Of a DNA stretch of 22,317 bases, positions 3,309-22,305 are shown piece after piece. The position numbers and the translations under genes are program-made. Numbering within the stretch: position 1 is the stretch's first letter; every line of letters starts with the position of its first letter. Under the pieces are notes generated by a model, which saw only the letters and a program-made list of their open reading frames with translations, was not told the origin of the DNA and did no database searches. Source of the DNA: Candidatus Desantisbacteria bacterium CG1_02_38_46 (GTDB taxonomy: Bacteria; Desantisbacteria; UBA1551; UBA1559); NCBI GenBank assembly GCA_001871015.1, contig MNUO01000070.1:1-22317 (forward strand). The letters run 5' to 3'.

Positions 3309-4043
3309 TCACATCCACTTTTCCACTTCTTTTTTTAATATGGTTTTAAATTCTGGTAACAGACGATGGTAACTTCTCGGTAGAAAAATACTCAGCTCGG
3401 TTTTAAAATCAATCTTCTTTTCTTCTAATATCTTTAAAATCTTATGCCTTAATCCACCCTCTCGCCTGATTTTCTCTACGCCTGGAATTCGGCTGCGTAA
3501 TATGAAATATAGATCAAAAAAATCTCTTGGTTTTTGACGCTCCAGCAATGCATTAATTTTTTCTTTTATCAACATATGGTCAGGAAGATAAATAAGAGTA
3601 TATGGAGGAAGGATTTCGCTATGTATCAAGGCAGTTGCTCCTTTAACAGAAGTTTGTTTTCTTAGAGAAATCTCCAACTGGATCTGTGGTGAATATGAAA
3701 AAATTTGAAAATGAATTACTCCAAGATATCCACCTGTTGTTTTTTTTGATTCAACAATATCCGTTTCAATTCCTTCACCTTCCATTTTTGATAAAATGGT
3801 TTCCAATAAATCTTCAATTTTTTTAAACGAAATACTGAATCCAGAAAAATCAAGGTCTTCTGAAAACCGGGGGCTCTGATGAATAATTTTTAATGCTGTC
3901 CCTCCTTTAAAAAGTACTTGCTCTGAATCATCTTCTTGATAAAAATATGACAGAAAAAGATGTTGACAATATTCACGGATAACATTGACAACGTTGGTTT
4001 GATTTTTTACAGAAACATTTTCCAAAAACTCTAGAGTAATCAT
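3309..4043 (-). CDS. abiEii: AbiEii-type nucleotidyltransferase toxin
   Basis: This 244-residue protein has the AbiEii/AbiGii nucleotidyltransferase signature: GGTALK at residues 47-52 and SEDLDF at 61-66, the metal- and nucleotide-binding loop. A downstream KEKINALLERQKPRDFFDLY block is typical of the family. AbiE systems are type IV toxin-antitoxin pairs that can give phage abortive infection; the toxin is proposed to transfer GMP or other nucleotides. In classic systems the toxin start overlaps the antitoxin stop. Here 74 bp separate them, filled by a repeat element whose edge supplies the AAAGG ribosome site just before the ATG. It lies with abiEi behind one promoter. Activity is inferred from intact motifs. 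Confidence 0.88.
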   Translation of the reverse strand: MITLEFLENVSVKNQTNVVNVIREYCQHLFLSYFYQEDDSEQVLFKGGTALKIIHQSPRFSEDLDFSGFSISFKKIEDLLETILSKMEGEGIETDIVESKKTTGGYLGVIHFQIFSYSPQIQLEISLRKQTSVKGATALIHSEILPPYTLIYLPDHMLIKEKINALLERQKPRDFFDLYFILRSRIPGVEKIRREGGLRHKILKILEEKKIDFKTELSIFLPRSYHRLLPEFKTILKKEVEKWM

Positions 4044-4109
4044 AAGAACCTTTCCCCGCCAATAATTAGTGGCGGGTCAAGAACCTTGTTTCTCGTTAGA
4101 CAAACGTCG
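4042..4109 (+). repeat. REP-like two-hairpin element, diverged single copy
   Basis: This copy shares ATAAGAACCT, AGAACCTTGTTTCTCGT and ACGTCG with the tandem copies at 14709-14840. Its first hairpin is CCCGCC/GGCGGG (GTCGCC/GGCGAC in the others) and its second is CGTT/AACG (CGTG/CACG in the others). The stems differ but stay paired. Strand is given for the orientation matching the 14.7-kb copies; the flanking genes run the other way. Confidence 0.75.
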
Positions 4110-4117
4110 TGGGTGTG

Positions 4118-4717
4118 TCATAATAAAATTTTCCTTAAAAGTTCAAGCAACCTATTATTTTTGAAGACTTTTGCATATTTCATAATTTTTTTTGTCTGTA
4201 ATCCTTTAAATAAAAACCTTTCGTTTAATGTTTTTTTGCCCAGTGCTACAAAATAAATATAATCCACCAGTGCTTTTTCAGGTTCAGCAATAAGCACAAC
4301 AACGTTTCCGATCCTGTGTGGAATATATCCAAAGTAAACTTCCTTTTTTATGGTCCGATATTCGTAAGTCTTGTTTTGAGGCTGGAAAATGCGTGTTGGC
4401 TTTGTTGTTGCCGAAGTAACAGAGTATGCGGCCTCAGGAATAATATGGTAAAAAGCGAGTGCATATTCAAAGGAAATATATGAAGGACGATAGAGAGCAT
4501 TTGCTGTCTGCAGTTCGGAAGGGGGAGAAGATGGAAAAAAATAATATCCTTTGCGAAGTCTGCCTACCATTCCTTTCATAAAATATCTGTGCAGAAGGAA
4601 CCTTATGGAGACTTCAGAAGTATGGAATAATCTTTGAAGGTCTCTCGGGGTAAAGATAGTAAAGCCCTTCTTTATCAGTTCATTTTCAATAATATACCAA
4701 TTCAGTTTTTTAGCCAT
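4118..4717 (-). CDS. abiEi: AbiEi-type antitoxin / transcriptional repressor
   Basis: This 199-residue partner of AbiEii has an N-terminal winged-helix region, about residues 1-65, with IFTPRDLQRLF and RFLLHRYFMKGMVGRLRKG. The body contains the AbiEi-family segment AEPEKALVDYIYF. AbiEi proteins neutralise the toxin and repress their own operon by binding the promoter. The frame is open to a TTG at 4762, but that codon lies in the promoter at the -10 hexamer. The ATG at 4717, about 27 bases after the predicted transcription start, is therefore chosen, although its ribosome site is poor. The stop TGA sits in TTATGA, a relic of the usual stop/start coupling to abiEii. Confidence 0.82.
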   Translation of the reverse strand: MAKKLNWYIIENELIKKGFTIFTPRDLQRLFHTSEVSIRFLLHRYFMKGMVGRLRKGYYFFPSSPPSELQTANALYRPSYISFEYALAFYHIIPEAAYSVTSATTKPTRIFQPQNKTYEYRTIKKEVYFGYIPHRIGNVVVLIAEPEKALVDYIYFVALGKKTLNERFLFKGLQTKKIMKYAKVFKNNRLLELLRKILL

Positions 4718-4750
4718 TTTGCTAATTAAATGAAATAGACTTTTAGATGT

Positions 4751-4779
4751 ATTATAACCCAATTACGACTATTTGTCAA
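4751..4779 (-). promoter_or_regulatory. Consensus sigma-70 promoter for abiE operon
   Basis: On the minus strand TTGACA (4779-4774) and TATAAT (4756-4751) are separated by 17 bases, a perfect consensus. A direct repeat of GACAAAT covers and precedes the -35 box and could be part of an AbiEi operator; that is inference. Confidence 0.88.
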
Positions 4780-8829: not shown

Positions 8830-8847
8830 AAAAGCAACGGCGCTTTT
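8830..8847 (+). promoter_or_regulatory. Candidate ANTAR-binding hexaloop hairpin in the hisH leader
   Basis: AAAAGC (8830-8835) pairs perfectly with GCTTTT (8842-8847), closing the hexaloop AACGGC. The loop has A at position 1 and G at position 4, the pattern reported for ANTAR target hairpins. It overlaps the left arm of the terminator, so the two folds exclude each other. Only one such hairpin fits between the promoter and terminator; known ANTAR targets usually have two. Confidence 0.6.
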
Positions 8848-8877
8848 TCGATGGAGAAGAAGCGTCTTTTTTGTTTT
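8839..8877 (+). terminator. Intrinsic leader terminator before hisH
   Basis: GGCGCTTTTTC (8839-8849) and GAAGAAGCGTC (8856-8866) form an 11-bp stem with two G-U pairs and the six-base loop GATGGA, followed by TTTTTTGTTTT. It lies before the hisH start, so it should attenuate the operon. Confidence 0.85.
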
Positions 8878-12628: not shown

Positions 12629-14019
12629 TAAAACACTCGTGTGGAATTTTTGGGGTTTTTGGCCATAAAGATGCTGCTGGACTCACATATTTAGGATTGT
12701 ATGCACTCCAGCATCGGGGTCAGGAAAGTGCTGGAATAGTTGTCTCAGATGGCAAAAACATTAGACACTGGCGCGGAATGGGCCTTGTAAGTGAAGTTTT
12801 TACAAGTGGAACCCTGAATACCCTCGCTGGAAAGTTCGCAATAGGACATGTGCGATATTCAACCACAGGTTCTTCAACTATAAAAAACACTCAGCCGTTC
12901 ATAGTTGAATATTTCGGCAATTCACTGGCAGTAGCACACAACGGAAATATAGTCAATGCCATACAATTGCACAGAAAACTGGAATCCTCAGGTTCTATTT
13001 TCCAATCCACTATGGACAGTGAATTGCTCGTCCATCTTATTGCCAAATCCAAAGGAGATTTTAAAGAAAAAGTTGCTAATTCCCTGACGAAATTAAAAGG
13101 TGCGTTCTCCATATTGGTTTTAGCTGAAAACCAATTCGTGGCTGCGAGAGATCCAGGCGGATTTCGTCCGTTATGTCTTGGAAAAATTGACGGGGCATAT
13201 GTAGTTGCATCTGAGACCTGCGCCCTTGACCTCATCCATGCAGACTATTTGCGTGAAATAGAACCGGGAGAGATTGTATTTTTTGATGAGAATGGACTGC
13301 ATTCAATTAAACCATTCACGAACAATAAACACTCTTTTTGTATCTTTGAATACATCTATTTTGCCCGTCCTGACAGTAATATATTTGGAGGAAATGTTTC
13401 TATTGCAAGAGAAAATCTGGGAAAGCGTCTCGCAAAAGAACATCCAGCAAAAGCAGATATTGTAATTCCTGTACCTGATTCAGGAACTTATGCAGCACTG
13501 GGTTTTGCAAGGGAGTCCGGAATTCCATTTGAGATGGGACTGGTAAGAAATCATTATGTCGGCAGAACCTTCATTCAGCCGTCACAGGAAATCAGGGACC
13601 TCGGGGTTAAAATAAAACTTAATCCGGTCAGCGAAGTATTAAAAGGAAAAAGCGTAGTAGTAATTGAAGATTCTATAGTGAGAGGAACAACCAGCTGCAT
13701 AAGGATTAAAGCACTGCGTGAAGCAGGTGCAAAAAAAGTACATATGCGCGTGAGTTGCCCTCCACTGCGGTATCCCTGTTTCTATGGAATTGACTTTCCC
13801 ACCTCGGAAGAACTCATAGCTTCCTCTCTCGGCGTAAAAGAAATAGGTGAACGTATCGGCGTTGATAGTCTTGGTTATTTAAGCATTGGTGGAATGCTTG
13901 ACTCAATGCCTATTCCAGGAGGCAAATTCTGCACCGCCTGCTTTACAGGAAGATACTCTGTTTCTGTAAAAGAAAAAATTTCCAAATACAAATTTGAAAA
14001 AGGAGGGAAACTACGGTGA
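12625..14019 (+). CDS. purF: Amidophosphoribosyltransferase
   Basis: PurF makes 5-phosphoribosylamine from PRPP and glutamine, the first committed step of purine synthesis. It has 464 residues. The N-terminal nucleophile Cys6 follows a five-residue propeptide, as in enzymes that cleave MxxxS before CGIFG. The PRPP-binding loop is [14 protein letters not shown]. Conserved cysteines in [22 protein letters not shown] and CTACF suggest the Bacillus type with a [4Fe-4S] cluster and propeptide. It overlaps pyrG by ATGA and the following GAF-ANTAR gene by GTGA. Confidence 0.97.
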
Positions 14020-14711
14020 GCAAAAAGACTTCTTATGCCAGGCAAATTGAAGCATTGTCAAAGATAAGCAAGGCAATTTCCTCAAAGTTATATTTAGAGG
14101 ACATTTTACGTCTTATAGTTACAGTTACAGCAGAAGTGATGCACTCAAGGATTTGTTCTTTAATGCTATTGAATGAAAAAAATGAACTGGTTCTTAAAGC
14201 AACCCAGGCTGTGAGTGAAGAGTATAAAAAGAAACCTCCCCTAAAACTCGGGGAAGGCATTGCTGGGAAAGTAGCAAAGGAAGAAAAGCCAATAATTGTT
14301 CCTGATGTAAAAGAAGATCCCGGATATCTACATCAGGGAATTGCAAGAAAAGAAAGACTCTGTTCACTGCTCAGCGTACCCCTAAGTGTAAAGGGAGGGG
14401 TTATCGGAGTGCTAAATCTTTATACTTCTACACCGCACAAATTCACAAAGGGTGAAATAGAAACTCTAACCACTGTGGCAAATCAGGCAGCAGTTGTTAT
14501 TGAGAATGCCAGGTTACTGGTACAGACCAGGATAATACAGGAAGAGCTGGAAACAAGAAAATTGGTTGAGCGCGCAAAGGGAATACTGATGAAACAGGGG
14601 TTATCAGAAGAAGAGGCATTCCGCAAAATTCAAAAGAAAAGTATGGACCTGCGCAAACCAATGAAGGAAATTGCAGAAGCAATAATACTGACAAGCGAAA
14701 TAGAAAAATAA
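14016..14711 (+). CDS. GAF-ANTAR RNA-binding antiterminator 1
   Basis: This 231-residue regulator has a GAF sensor domain at about residues 20-165 (LGEGIAGKVAKEEKPIIVPDV, SVPLSVKGGVIGVLNLY) followed by an ANTAR domain at about 176-231 (RKLVERAKGILM, GLSEEEAFRKIQ, LRKPMKEIAEAII). ANTAR domains bind paired hexaloop hairpins in leader RNA and block terminator formation, as known for NasR and EutV; the GAF domain probably senses a small ligand. The GTG start overlaps the purF stop, with AGGAGG 9 bases upstream. It is the last gene of the hisH operon, whose own leader carries a candidate target hairpin. Compared with its paralogue at 17228 it lacks one residue in ILMKQGLS. The stop TAA is the first part of a repeat element. 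Confidence 0.93.
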   Translation: MSKKTSYARQIEALSKISKAISSKLYLEDILRLIVTVTAEVMHSRICSLMLLNEKNELVLKATQAVSEEYKKKPPLKLGEGIAGKVAKEEKPIIVPDVKEDPGYLHQGIARKERLCSLLSVPLSVKGGVIGVLNLYTSTPHKFTKGEIETLTTVANQAAVVIENARLLVQTRIIQEELETRKLVERAKGILMKQGLSEEEAFRKIQKKSMDLRKPMKEIAEAIILTSEIEK

Positions 14712-14840
14712 GAACCTGTCGCCTCGGGCGACAGAACCTTGTTTCTCGTGGGACACGTCGATAAAATGTCAAAATAAGAACCTGTCGCCTCGGGCGACAG
14801 AACCTTGTTTCTCGTGGGACACGTCGATAAAATGTCAAAA
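14709..14840 (+). repeat. Two tandem copies of a 66-bp two-hairpin element
   Basis: Two nearly identical 66-bp units, the second starting at about 14775. Each has ATAAGAACCT, the hairpin GTCGCC/GGCGAC, AGAACCTTGTTTCT, the hairpin CGTG/CACG and ACGTCG, ending in ATAAAATGTCAAAAT. A diverged copy is at 4042-4109. The first unit begins exactly at the stop codon of the GAF-ANTAR gene. Confidence 0.88.
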
Positions 14841-14864: not shown

Positions 14865-14912
14865 ACAAAAAAATGCCGTGGACTTGACAAATTGATAAAA
14901 ATGTGCTATAAT
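14865..14912 (+). promoter_or_regulatory. Sigma-70 promoter of the glutamate synthase operon with upstream conserved box
   Basis: TTGACA (14884-14889) and TATAAT (14907-14912) are 17 bases apart. Just upstream, ACAAAAAAATGCCGTGG (14865-14881) is repeated almost exactly before the promoter at 22193, so it is likely a shared operator, an UP-like element or the edge of a duplicated cassette. This stretch is part of the 482-bp gene-free region 14712-15193, which holds the repeats, this promoter and the leader structures listed here. Confidence 0.85.
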
Positions 14913-14918
14913 GGATTT

Positions 14919-14953
14919 TGACATAATGAAGTGTTGTAAGGCGAAGCAGCCTT
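14919..14953 (+). promoter_or_regulatory. Tandem hexaloop hairpins, candidate ANTAR target in the glutamate synthase leader
   Basis: Hairpin 1 is TGACAT (14919-14924) with GTGTTG (14931-14936), closing the loop AATGAA, which has A1 and G4; several pairs are G-U. Hairpin 2 is AAGGC (14938-14942) with GCCTT (14949-14953), closing the six-base loop GAAGCA, which has G4 but G rather than A at position 1. The right arm of hairpin 2 is the left arm of the following terminator, so hairpin 2 acts as an antiterminator. This is the arrangement of ANTAR-controlled leaders. Confidence 0.68.
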
Positions 14954-14990
14954 CTTTCCCGAGGTAGGGAGAGAAGGCTTTTTTTGTTTT
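14949..14990 (+). terminator. Intrinsic leader terminator before glutamate synthase
   Basis: GCCTTCTTTCCC (14949-14960) and GGGAGAGAAGGC (14967-14978) make a 12-bp stem with one wobble and the hexaloop GAGGTA, followed by TTTTTTTGTTTT. It lies 200 bp before the start of the next gene and directly after the promoter. Confidence 0.9.
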
Positions 14991-15018
14991 TTAAGAACAC
15001 AAGATTGGTTGCTCCAAA

Positions 15019-15118
15019 CGCAAGGTAGCGATTACTTTGCGACGAAGATGTCTTCCGTAGAGAATGACCTCTACAGTCATGAACTATTCAATTCATGGCA
15101 GGAAGGCTTTTTTTGTTT
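15019..15118 (+). promoter_or_regulatory. Second structured leader segment with a hexaloop hairpin and U-tract
   Basis: CGCAAGGTA/TACTTTGCG (15019-15027/15033-15041) forms a 9-bp stem with one G-U pair. GTAGAG/CTCTAC (15057-15062/15069-15074) closes the hexaloop AATGAC, again A1 and G4. CATGAA/TTCATG (15078-15083/15092-15097) follows, and GGAAGG (15101-15106) can pair with TCTTCC (15051-15056) to enclose these last two. A GGCTTTTTTTG tract follows, the same as in the first terminator. It may be a second attenuator or a single long-range fold. Confidence 0.45.
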
Positions 15119-15193: not shown

Positions 15194-16762
15194 ATGTCAT
15201 TCAGTAGAGCAAATGCAAGTCCAGCAACTGGAACAAGGAATCGCACTGCCTACAACCCTGGTTCAGGAATGTGTGTCACCTGTCTTGATGGGTGCGTAGG
15301 TCTGTGTGAAATTGGTAAATCCGCAATCAGGGGAAGAGAAGTTCTTTATCCCCAGCCTTTTGGTAAAATGACTGCTGGTTCGGAAAAGGATTATCCGGTA
15401 GATTTATCCCACTTCAACATTCAGGGAACCTGCGTGGGAGCAGTGGGTTTACCTGCGGACTCGGATAAGGCAATTTTCCCAGCAGTAGATGTTTCAACTG
15501 AAGTCGGTTCAAAAGGAAGTATTAAATTGAAAGTCCCCTACTTCACTGCTGCGGTTGGTTCCACAGACATTGCCAGACTTCATTGGGAATCGATTGCCAT
15601 CGGGTCAGCAATTTGCGGAACAATAGCTGTGATTGGAGAGAATGTTTGTGGCGTTGACCCCCAGAGTGAAATTAAAAAAGGGAGAGTTGTAAAATCTCCT
15701 GAGTTAGAAAGGCGCGTAAAAATCTACAAGAATTGGTACAAGGGATATGGGACACTTGCGGTGCAGATGAATGTGGAAGACACGCGCCTCGGTGTAGCAG
15801 AGTATGCCATTGAGAAACTCGGTGTTGAAACCTTAGAGTTGAAATGGGGGCAGGGTGCAAAGGACATTGGCGGAGAAATTAAATTGCCCAGTCTCGAGGG
15901 AGCTCTGGAACTGAAGAAAAAAGGTTACATTGTATATCCTGACCCTGAAGACCCTGTAGCACAGAAGGCATTCAAAGATGGAGATTTTAAGGAATTTGAG
16001 AGACACTCTCGACTGGGGATGGTAGATGAAGAAAGATTCTACAAGGAAGTGGAGCGGGCAAGGAAACTGGGAGCAAAATATGTCACGCTGAAAACCGGTG
16101 CTTATCGCCCCGCGGACCTGGCAAGGGCTGTGAAATTTGCCTCCAATGCTCGAATTGACCTGCTGACAGTTGATGGTTCAGGTGGTGGCACAGGAATGAG
16201 TCCCTGGCGAATGATGAATGAATGGGGTATTCCAACAGTGCAATTGGAGTGTCTGCTCTATCAATTCCTTAAGAAACTTGATGAAAAAGGTGCGTACATT
16301 CCACCCTGTGCTATGGCTGGCGGATTTTCTCTTGAGGACCATGTGTTCAAGGCATTTGCTTTGGGTGCACCTTACATTAAAGCGGTCTGCATAGGCAGGG
16401 CAACAATAGCTGCAGCAATGGTTGGAAACACTGTCGGAGAAATGGTAAAGAAAGGGAAAGTTCCACCAGAGTTTCAAAAATACGGTAAAACTCTAGACCA
16501 GGTTTTCTTCGGTGCAGCAAAGTTGAAGGAAAAATATGGCAAGGATTTTGAGAAAATGACTACTGGTGCCGTTGGAATGTACACCTACTACGAGCGTCTC
16601 ACCACCGGGCTGCAGCAGTTGATGGCTGGCGCAAGAAAATTTGCCCTAAAACATATCTCCAGAGACGATATAGTGGCATTGACTCGTGAAGCATCTGATA
16701 TTTCAGGTATTCCATTTGTAATGGAGTCTGACTGGAAGGAAGTAGAGAAAATTTTAAAATGA
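15194..16762 (+). CDS. Stand-alone FMN-binding glutamate synthase subunit (GltB central-domain family)
   Basis: This 522-residue protein is the FMN/synthase domain of glutamate synthase as a separate polypeptide, the kind seen in archaea and some anaerobes. It lacks the glutamine amidotransferase domain of GltB, so ammonia must come from a partner or free. The N-terminus has CVTCLDGCVGLC at residues 27-38, a cysteine pattern suited to a metal or Fe-S site. The FMN/phosphate region includes TVDGSGGGTGMSP and CAMAGGFSLEDHVFKAFALG. AGGAGG lies 5 bases before the ATG, and the gene is preceded by a 270-base attenuated leader. It overlaps the nucleotidyltransferase gene by ATGA. Reaction: 2-oxoglutarate plus ammonia and reductant to glutamate, inferred from the family. 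Confidence 0.88.
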   Translation: MSFSRANASPATGTRNRTAYNPGSGMCVTCLDGCVGLCEIGKSAIRGREVLYPQPFGKMTAGSEKDYPVDLSHFNIQGTCVGAVGLPADSDKAIFPAVDVSTEVGSKGSIKLKVPYFTAAVGSTDIARLHWESIAIGSAICGTIAVIGENVCGVDPQSEIKKGRVVKSPELERRVKIYKNWYKGYGTLAVQMNVEDTRLGVAEYAIEKLGVETLELKWGQGAKDIGGEIKLPSLEGALELKKKGYIVYPDPEDPVAQKAFKDGDFKEFERHSRLGMVDEERFYKEVERARKLGAKYVTLKTGAYRPADLARAVKFASNARIDLLTVDGSGGGTGMSPWRMMNEWGIPTVQLECLLYQFLKKLDEKGAYIPPCAMAGGFSLEDHVFKAFALGAPYIKAVCIGRATIAAAMVGNTVGEMVKKGKVPPEFQKYGKTLDQVFFGAAKLKEKYGKDFEKMTTGAVGMYTYYERLTTGLQQLMAGARKFALKHISRDDIVALTREASDISGIPFVMESDWKEVEKILK

Positions 16763-17214
16763 AAGCAAGTATTTTAATAAAGGAGGCTCTTCAGTTCTGC
16801 CAGGAAAAAGCAAGCTGGAGGGTCTCCGGAATATCGGATTTGCGTCGAGGAGATAAGTGGACTCACAGCACATTCCGCTATGGCCTGGCTCGCCAGATTT
16901 CCAATCATCTGCTTAATAACTACCGTGAAATTAAAGCAGTTTATATTTTCGGCAGTACACTGGAGGACAGGGCAGGTTCCACATCAGATGTTGATCTAAT
17001 CCTTGTGGTTCAGAAAAAGAACGAACTCCTTCTGCACTACATAAGGAAATTAAAAGCAGAAGTTTTGCGGGCATACAAAAAGTTGGCAGGAAATGGCACT
17101 GCCGGATTAACAGACCTGCTGGATGTAAACATCGTTGACGATGAAGAACTAAAACAGAAAAAGGGATGTGCATCGCTGATTGATTCTATTTACACACCTG
17201 CTATCAAAATTTAG
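16759..17214 (+). CDS. Small nucleotidyltransferase-fold protein in the glutamate synthase operon
   Basis: The 151-residue protein has the polymerase-beta/MNT nucleotidyltransferase signature: GSTLEDRAGSTSDVDLILVV at about residues 66-85 (GS, then D-x-D) and a later aspartate in LLDVNIVDD that could be the third metal ligand. Such proteins transfer AMP, UMP or similar groups to proteins, antibiotics or other targets. An N-terminal tryptophan/arginine-rich helix region precedes it. It overlaps the glutamate synthase gene by ATGA and is followed 13 bp later by a GAF-ANTAR gene, so a role in modifying a nitrogen-metabolism protein is possible but only inferred. No HEPN partner of a typical MNT-HEPN pair is seen. 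Confidence 0.8.
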   Translation: MKASILIKEALQFCQEKASWRVSGISDLRRGDKWTHSTFRYGLARQISNHLLNNYREIKAVYIFGSTLEDRAGSTSDVDLILVVQKKNELLLHYIRKLKAEVLRAYKKLAGNGTAGLTDLLDVNIVDDEELKQKKGCASLIDSIYTPAIKI

Positions 17215-17227
17215 TTGGAGGGGGGCG

Positions 17228-17923
17228 ATGAAAACACTCTCATCTGGAAAACAGATTGAGGCACTTTCCAAAATTGGCAAGGCAATTACATCATACACAT
17301 ACCTGGATGATGTGCTGAATTTTATTGTCTCAATTACGGCTGAGATTGTTGATTCAAAGATATGCTCTTTATTACTTCTGAATGAAAAAAAAGAACTTGT
17401 CATTAGAACAACCCAATCGGTGAGTGAAAGTTACAGAAGGAAAGACCCTATTAAACTTGGTGAGGGGATTGCAGGTAAGGTAGCAAAAGAAAATAAACCC
17501 ATCACAGTACTCGATGTCAAGGAGGACCTAAGATATATCAACCGTGAGATTGCTGAAATGGAAGGGCTCTGTTCATTGCTCAGCGTACCCTTGAGTATTA
17601 AGGGCAAAGTAATTGGAGTGCTCAATTGTTATACGGGTTCCCCGCACAATTTTACCGAAAAAGAAATAAATCTACTTACAACTATTGCAAATCAGTCTGC
17701 TGTTGTTATAGAAAATGCACAATTAATGCTCAAAACCCGGGAAATTCAGGAAGAACTGGAGACAAGGAAAATAGTAGAACGTGCTAAGGGAATACTGATG
17801 AGGATGCAAGGGCTAAGTGAAGAAGAGGCGTTCCGACGAATCCAGAAGAAAAGTATGAATATGCGTAAGCCAATGAAGGAAATTGCAGAAGCAATAATAC
17901 TGACGGAAGAATTAGGGAAATAG
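17228..17923 (+). CDS. GAF-ANTAR RNA-binding antiterminator 2
   Basis: This is a paralogue of the regulator at 14016, the same length (231 residues) and largely identical, especially in the ANTAR part. GAF occupies about residues 20-165 (LGEGIAGKVAKENKPITVLDV, SVPLSIKGKVIGVLNCY) and ANTAR about 176-231 (RKIVERAKGILM, GLSEEEAFRRIQ, MRKPMKEIAEAII). The ATG at 17228 is preferred to an upstream in-frame start at 17180, because GGAGGGGGG directly precedes it and the sequence matches its paralogue from there. It ends at the base before the carA ATG. Placed inside the operon that begins with a hexaloop leader, it is a likely autoregulatory antiterminator; the GAF ligand is unknown. Confidence 0.93.
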   Translation: MKTLSSGKQIEALSKIGKAITSYTYLDDVLNFIVSITAEIVDSKICSLLLLNEKKELVIRTTQSVSESYRRKDPIKLGEGIAGKVAKENKPITVLDVKEDLRYINREIAEMEGLCSLLSVPLSIKGKVIGVLNCYTGSPHNFTEKEINLLTTIANQSAVVIENAQLMLKTREIQEELETRKIVERAKGILMRMQGLSEEEAFRRIQKKSMNMRKPMKEIAEAIILTEELGK

Positions 17924-22174: not shown

Positions 22175-22220
22175 ACAAAAAATGCCGTGGGCTTGACAAA
22201 ATTAATTTTTATGTTATACT
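22175..22220 (+). promoter_or_regulatory. Third promoter of the same type, with the shared upstream box
   Basis: ACAAAAAATGCCGTGG (22175-22190) repeats the box at 14865. It is followed by TTGACA (22193-22198), 16 bases and TATACT (22215-22220). It reads out of the window to the right. Confidence 0.8.
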
Positions 22221-22252: not shown

Positions 22253-22305
22253 ACAATACAAGGGAGTGTTGTAAAAAGACGATGGTGTCCGAATTCCCGG
22301 AACAC
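22253..22305 (+). promoter_or_regulatory. Third candidate ANTAR leader (edge of window)
   Basis: ACAATAC (22253-22259) pairs with GTGTTGT (22266-22272), closing the hexaloop AAGGGA (A1, G4). A weak second hairpin, GAC/GTC (22278-22280/22287-22289), closes the hexaloop GATGGT. Its right arm overlaps a larger stem, GTGTCCG/CGGAACAC (22285-22291/22298-22305). The hairpin-1 3' arm and linker (AGTGTTGTAA) are the same as in the 14.9-kb leader. Any U-tract and the controlled gene lie beyond the edge. Confidence 0.55.

Follow-up and report, generated by a model that had tools for sequence, protein, structure and literature searches.

A putative ANTAR-type antitermination leader upstream of a glutamate synthase gene in Candidatus Desantisbacteria

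The gltB2 locus and its leader

The window analysed here, a 22,317-nucleotide stretch of DNA from Candidatus Desantisbacteria bacterium CG1_02_38_46, encodes between positions 8831 and 22317 a series of enzymes, most of which consume glutamine or produce glutamate (hisH, guaA, pyrG, purF, gltB2, carA, carB); the series is continued by gdhA on contig C129, and two GAF-ANTAR genes are interleaved with it. The controlled gene considered here, gltB2 (15194-16762, plus strand), encodes a glutamate synthase with an FMN-binding domain (Pfam Glu_synthase, 1.7e-12). Upstream lies the gene of GAF-ANTAR protein 1, hereafter ANTAR1 (14016-14711, plus strand; Pfam ANTAR 4.3e-20, GAF_2 4.8e-24), which ends 208 bases before the leader hairpins, and downstream that of GAF-ANTAR protein 2 (17180-17923, plus strand; Pfam ANTAR 7e-22). 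Both proteins are probable regulators, and the two genes flanking the gltB2 leader are the sole ANTAR genes in the 88%-complete genome.

Several other elements were observed in this neighbourhood and in the sister genome Candidatus Desantisbacteria CG1_02_49_89 (G001), the sole other genome of the phylum compared. A 66-base tandem repeat directly follows ANTAR1 (14698-14829) and contains a perfect hairpin, CTGTCGCC-TCG-GGCGACAG, with the flanks AGAACCTG and CAGAACCTTGTT; one further copy is present on contig C97, and an element resembling it, built on another stem, follows ANTAR1 in the sister. A small nucleotidyltransferase with a weak MntA-type match is encoded between gltB2 and the gene of GAF-ANTAR protein 2 (16759-17214), likewise in the sister. 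Farther upstream, an AbiEi/AbiEii-like pair of the toxin-antitoxin or phage-defence kind occupies 3309-4762 on the minus strand.

The intergenic region between ANTAR1 and gltB2 spans 482 nt and, as read from its sequence, contains a promoter, two hairpins and a terminator, all on the plus strand. The promoter is of the sigma-70 type (14884-14913), with TTGACA at about 14884-14889 and TATAAT at about 14908-14913, and is preceded by AAAATGCCGTGGAC. Hairpin 1 (HP1, 14919-14936) reads TGACAT-AATGAA-GTGTTG, with A as the first and G as the fourth loop base (A1 and G4), and three of its six base pairs are G-U. A single T (14937) separates it from hairpin 2 (HP2, 14938-14953), AAGGC-GAAGCA-GCCTT, the loop of which shows G1 and G4. 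The intrinsic terminator (terminator 1, 14948-14985) has the sequence (A)GCCTTCTTTCCC-GAGGTA-GGGAGAGAAGGC(T) from 14948 to 14979, i.e. 12 bp plus an A-U pair around the loop GAGGTA, and ends in seven T (14979-14985). Bases 14949-14953 serve both as the right arm of HP2 and as the opening five bases of the 12-bp terminator, and HP2 and the terminator are mutually exclusive. An earlier note on this DNA had described such an antiterminator/terminator overlap before the glutamate synthase gene, and its description proved correct to the base, including the coordinates, both loops, the one-base gap and the shared GCCTT.

The calculated folding energies are -1.9 kcal/mol for HP1, -6.6 kcal/mol for HP2, -8.5 kcal/mol for both hairpins together and -24.2 kcal/mol for terminator 1. 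When the growing transcript was folded, HP1 and HP2 formed first; the terminator prevailed from about nt 68 of the folded segment onward and ousted HP2 only once its own right arm had emerged. The arrangement is not readily obtained by chance. A unit was scored where two neighbouring hairpins had hexaloops of the form [A/G]nnG and the arm of the second opened a U-tailed terminator. The 482-nt intergenic region contains two such units; none arose when it was dinucleotide-shuffled 2000 times, nor in 60 dinucleotide shuffles of the whole window.

Further leaders in the genome and homologues in other phyla

The second of these units is a probable dual hairpin downstream of the first (15019-15052, plus strand; CGC-AAGGTA-GCG and GAC-GAAGAT-GTC), which is followed by terminator 2 (15050-15114, plus strand), composed of GTCTTCC/GGAAGGC around GTAGAG-AATGAC-CTCTAC and CATGAA..TTCATG and then a T-run. 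The last three bases of GAC-GAAGAT-GTC open terminator 2, which has a fold z-score of -4.55 and is conserved in the sister. Other folds compete with it and its hairpin 1 is unclear in the sister, so that this second tandem unit (15019-15114) is probable rather than certain. Two successive units before gltB2 were also found in a Thermodesulfobacteriota genome (L124) and, probably, in a Latescibacterota genome (L051). Terminator 2 holds a three-way junction (15050-15107) with inner hairpins that are nearly identical in the sister, loop RATGAC included, and are conserved beyond what a terminator needs.

Upstream of the hisH-guaA-pyrG-purF-ANTAR1 genes, a compact leader was assigned at 8831-8872 (plus strand), with AAAGC-AACGGC-GCTTT and TTC-GATGGA-GAA as its two hairpins. 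The right arm of hairpin 1 lies inside an 11-bp terminator, and hairpin 2 is the tip of that terminator. The covariance models do not find this leader because its hairpins overlap, and its putative assignment draws on its anatomy and on its conserved counterpart in the sister. Neither this leader nor the second unit before gltB2 had been named in the earlier note, and both carry G1 in loop 2.

Near the end of the window lies a further predicted leader (22254-22289, plus strand; CAATAC-AAGGGA-GTGTTG and GAC-GATGGT-GTC), in which the weak second hairpin that the earlier note had placed at 22278, with G at loop position 1, is borne out (G1 and G4). The contig ends inside the terminator of this leader; at the start of another contig of this genome, C129, stand the T-run CTTTTTTTG, a ribosome-binding site and glutamate dehydrogenase. 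The leader at 22254 thus precedes gdhA across the contig gap, and the sister has the matching leader immediately before glutamate dehydrogenase. The gltB2 and gdhA leader promoters have AAAATGCCGTGGNCTTGACA in common (14870-14889 and 22179-22198), a sequence confined to these two sites in the genome. The sister has a different upstream sequence, AAAATCTGNNCGACGCTTGACA, common to its carA and gdhA promoters. An open frame at 21833-22231 matches only residues 83-179 of the 210 of the QueC profile and extends into the gdhA promoter, and may therefore be a gene remnant. Together, gltB2, gdhA and the hisH-guaA-pyrG-purF operon probably form a putative ANTAR regulon, and carA also has a leader in the sister genome.

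Are the two hairpins preserved in homologous leaders? In the sister, the gltB2 leader consists of TGACAC-GGTTAT-GTGTCA, then AAGGC-AGAGCT-GCCTT and then an identical terminator stem. The HP2 stem and the terminator are unchanged base for base, and the linker and both loops have diverged. HP2 thus persists together with the whole terminator stem, and the loss of HP2 beside a retained terminator, which the earlier note had named as the outcome that would speak against its proposal, was not what we found. Indeed, the left arm AAGGC is kept beside a diverged linker although the terminator has no need of it. The HP1 stem is also kept, with improved pairing, around a loop that lacks A1 and G4.

Similar dual-hairpin/terminator leaders precede homologues of gltB2, carA and gdhA beside ANTAR genes in other phyla; they were gathered from 18 other genomes, and their loops match the ANTAR consensus. 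A leave-out covariance model, built from 20 leaders of other genomes and phyla with no sequence from this genome or its sister, matched 14921-14951 (E 0.005), 15018-15052 (E 0.012) and 22256-22289 (E 0.00042) in a search over 58 kb. The covariance analysis proposed earlier likewise turned out in favour of the stems: when 30 leaders were aligned, pairing was found in 99.0% of the stem cells, 6 of 7 pairs were changed on both sides, and none of 500 shuffles matched either the percentage paired or the covariation score; slid controls gave 25-49% paired cells. The percentage paired is biased upward because the leaders were partly chosen for pairing, and the double-sided changes are the better evidence. 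This alignment was made on trimmed leaders, since MAFFT misaligned leaders of unequal length, and the first unbiased terminator-centred scans were too noisy for counting loop letters. Several weak model matches in other genomes, located within genes or without a terminator, were left out (L141, L145, L148 and L152), a match before pyrG with hairpins that were not assignable was not counted (L161), and two leaders were kept despite an absent U-tract (L047 and L048). In Omnitrophota, Actinomycetota and others, too, ANTAR genes adjoin gltB2, carAB, purF or pyrG.

Probable control of the leader by ANTAR proteins and its alternatives

The hairpins with their overlap, the homologous leaders and the neighbouring ANTAR genes are evident at the sequence level. 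Two neighbouring stem-loops of at least 3 bp each carry hexanucleotide loops with G at position 4 (AATGAA and GAAGCA), the second of them excludes the intrinsic terminator, and ANTAR proteins are encoded by the two flanking genes. The mechanism of ANTAR antitermination is experimentally established for EutV (Ramesh 2012, PMC3369931; Walshe 2022, PMC8934654), and A1/G4 loops together with a second hairpin that overlaps the terminator are the marks of this established antiterminator. The ANTAR character proposed in the earlier note is further strengthened by the adjacent GAF-ANTAR genes, the leave-out covariance model, the covariation and the conservation in the sister. We therefore consider it very probable that the gltB2 leader is a transcription-attenuation leader under an ANTAR-domain antiterminator.

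Could the same hairpins simply belong to an ordinary intrinsic terminator, either at the end of the purF-ANTAR1 operon or as a fixed attenuator, with the two small hairpins being incidental? The terminator is indeed strong and lies downstream of that operon. However, a promoter sits between the operon and the hairpins, the outer arm of HP2 is kept in the sister, a model trained on other genomes finds the leader, the stems covary and ANTAR genes flank the locus, which together make this reading very unlikely. A riboswitch or other ligand-binding leader, e.g. a glutamine-responsive or pyrG-type one, is extremely improbable: nitrogen-metabolism genes do lie downstream, and Rfam PyrG_leader (RF02371) gave a sub-threshold match, which scored 23.1 bits (E 0.69) where the gathering score is 65 and was rejected, but Rfam returned no match at the gathering threshold, the aptamer would consist solely of two hairpins with 6-nt loops, and the loops fit the ANTAR consensus across phyla.

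For an ANTAR-controlled leader, and by analogy to EutV, we propose the following sequence of events. Transcription would start just upstream of the hairpins, and by default the terminator of 12-13 bp would form and halt RNA polymerase before gltB2. Upon a presumed signal at the GAF domain, one or both of the GAF-ANTAR proteins, when active, would bind the two hexaloops as they emerge and keep HP2 closed. As HP2 would then occupy GCCTT, which otherwise starts the terminator, termination would be prevented and the polymerase would read on, so that the regulation would presumably be activating. The second, weaker unit some 60-70 bases downstream would probably act as a second gate, which suggests that one intergenic region may stack two ANTAR-controlled terminators before gltB2. 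The gdhA gene and the hisH-guaA-pyrG-purF operon would probably be under the same proteins, forming a small regulon of glutamine/glutamate use.

Some features count against this mechanism. HP1 is weak, HP2 has G at loop position 1, and the loop of HP1 in the sister gltB2 leader, GGTTAT, lacks both consensus bases. Moreover, the distance between the hairpins, 1 nt with full stems, is below the 3 nt that failed in an Enterococcus faecalis eutP reporter (PMC3369931). Other leaders of the group are equally compact, and the linker amounts to 5 nt if stems of 4 bp and 3 bp are counted; published ranges are 2-25 nt (PMC8164766) and, for eut leaders, 5-12 nt.

Compared with the EutV-controlled eut leaders of E. 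faecalis (Ramesh et al. 2012, PMC3369931), the gltB2 leader has the same two short hexaloop hairpins, G4 in both loops, A1 in hairpin 1 and an overlap between the second hairpin and the terminator's 5' arm. It differs in that the HP2 loop begins with G rather than A, in a linker of 1 nt instead of 5-12 nt and in a U-G closing pair in HP1, and its presumed regulators are one-component GAF-ANTAR proteins, whereas a REC-ANTAR response regulator serves eut. In the kind of RNA and the class of gene, the leader resembles those ANTAR targets of Desulfotomaculum reducens and D. acetoxidans that belong to glutamate synthase and further nitrogen genes (PMC3369931, Figure 9); here the phylum is another one and the regulator genes are located inside the cluster of glutamine/glutamate genes. 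Actinobacterial ANTAR RNAs (PMC8164766) also consist of dual hexaloop stem-loops that tolerate deviations from A1 and G4, but unlike these, the leaders in the window would act through terminators; the text of that study mentions no glutamine or glutamate synthase targets. It is well supported that the leader joins the known ANTAR antitermination leaders, with a gene class already reported as a target (glutamate synthase, Desulfotomaculum; PMC3369931). ANTAR antitermination with interleaved GAF-ANTAR regulators would thereby reach an uncultured phylum, Candidatus Desantisbacteria, and its glutamine/glutamate genes; related leaders occur in several other phyla.

Adenine or guanine at loop position 1 of hairpin 2

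The strict consensus has A1 in both loops; HP1 agrees with it, and HP2 has G in that place. A1 in each loop is a consensus, taken from the search model of Ramesh et al. (2012), and not a definition; single point variation in a loop is permitted in PMC8164766. The replacement is uniform and mildly surprising: the HP2 loops of the four leaders in this genome are GAAGCA, GAAGAT, GATGGT and GATGGA, each with G at position 1, and all four HP1 loops retain A1. The five HP2 loops of the sister (AGAGCT, AAGGAC, which is less certain, AACGGT, AATGGA and AATGGA) all begin with A. This difference (4/4 against 0/5) gives a Fisher p of 0.008, or 0.03 when the uncertain loops are dropped as one pair. Among 28 comparison loops from 18 other genomes, sister included, we counted 23 A, 4 G and 1 U; the contrast of 4/4 with 4/28 corresponds to p of about 0.002, with loops that are not independent.

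The earlier note had suggested that G1 may be a lineage-specific variant of the recognition rule and had proposed to examine its conservation in HP2 across copies. Such conservation does not extend to the homologues, which have A throughout the sister and mostly A elsewhere. The uniformity within this genome stands, as does the difference from the sister; a variant unique to this lineage is rejected, since G1 in HP2 also occurs in four unrelated genomes (G098, G126, G127 and G155). As for the rule itself, a residue search of the ANTAR domain found no residue that separates G1 from A1 genomes, and the phylum is represented by two genomes only. Taken together, the recurrence of G1 in unrelated genomes and the lack of a tracking ANTAR residue point to a genome-wide but recurrent purine variant and not to a proven new rule.

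The economical reading, which we regard as probable, is that either purine is tolerated at position 1 of HP2 and that the consistent G of this genome came about by drift or partial common descent of the leader copies, with the rule unchanged. Indeed, the common element of the gltB2 and gdhA promoters implies that leader copies may be partly related by descent. In the EutV structure, G4 is the only base-specific contact, which leaves the role of A1 of the hexaloop open (PMC8934654), and in Actinobacteria the conservation of A1 and G4 is stated merely as >50% (PMC8164766). The skewed counts, the A1 retained in HP1 and the orthologous hisH leaders, which differ at that base alone, argue against this reading. 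A further reading is a regulon-wide shift of the code at one base in this lineage, in which loop 2 would be read as GnnG and loop 1 still as AnnG, the protein, perhaps a heterodimer of the two GAF-ANTAR proteins, would tell the hairpins apart, and the sister would keep A in both; we consider such a shift unlikely. In other systems, selection with NasR favours A1 (PMC7496416), and A53U, at the corresponding position in loop 2, reduced eutP induction (PMC3369931). Over 42 bases, the hisH leaders of this genome and its sister differ only at position 1 of the HP2 loop; they are natural single-loop-base variants that could test whether A1 is read by the protein or is merely structural.
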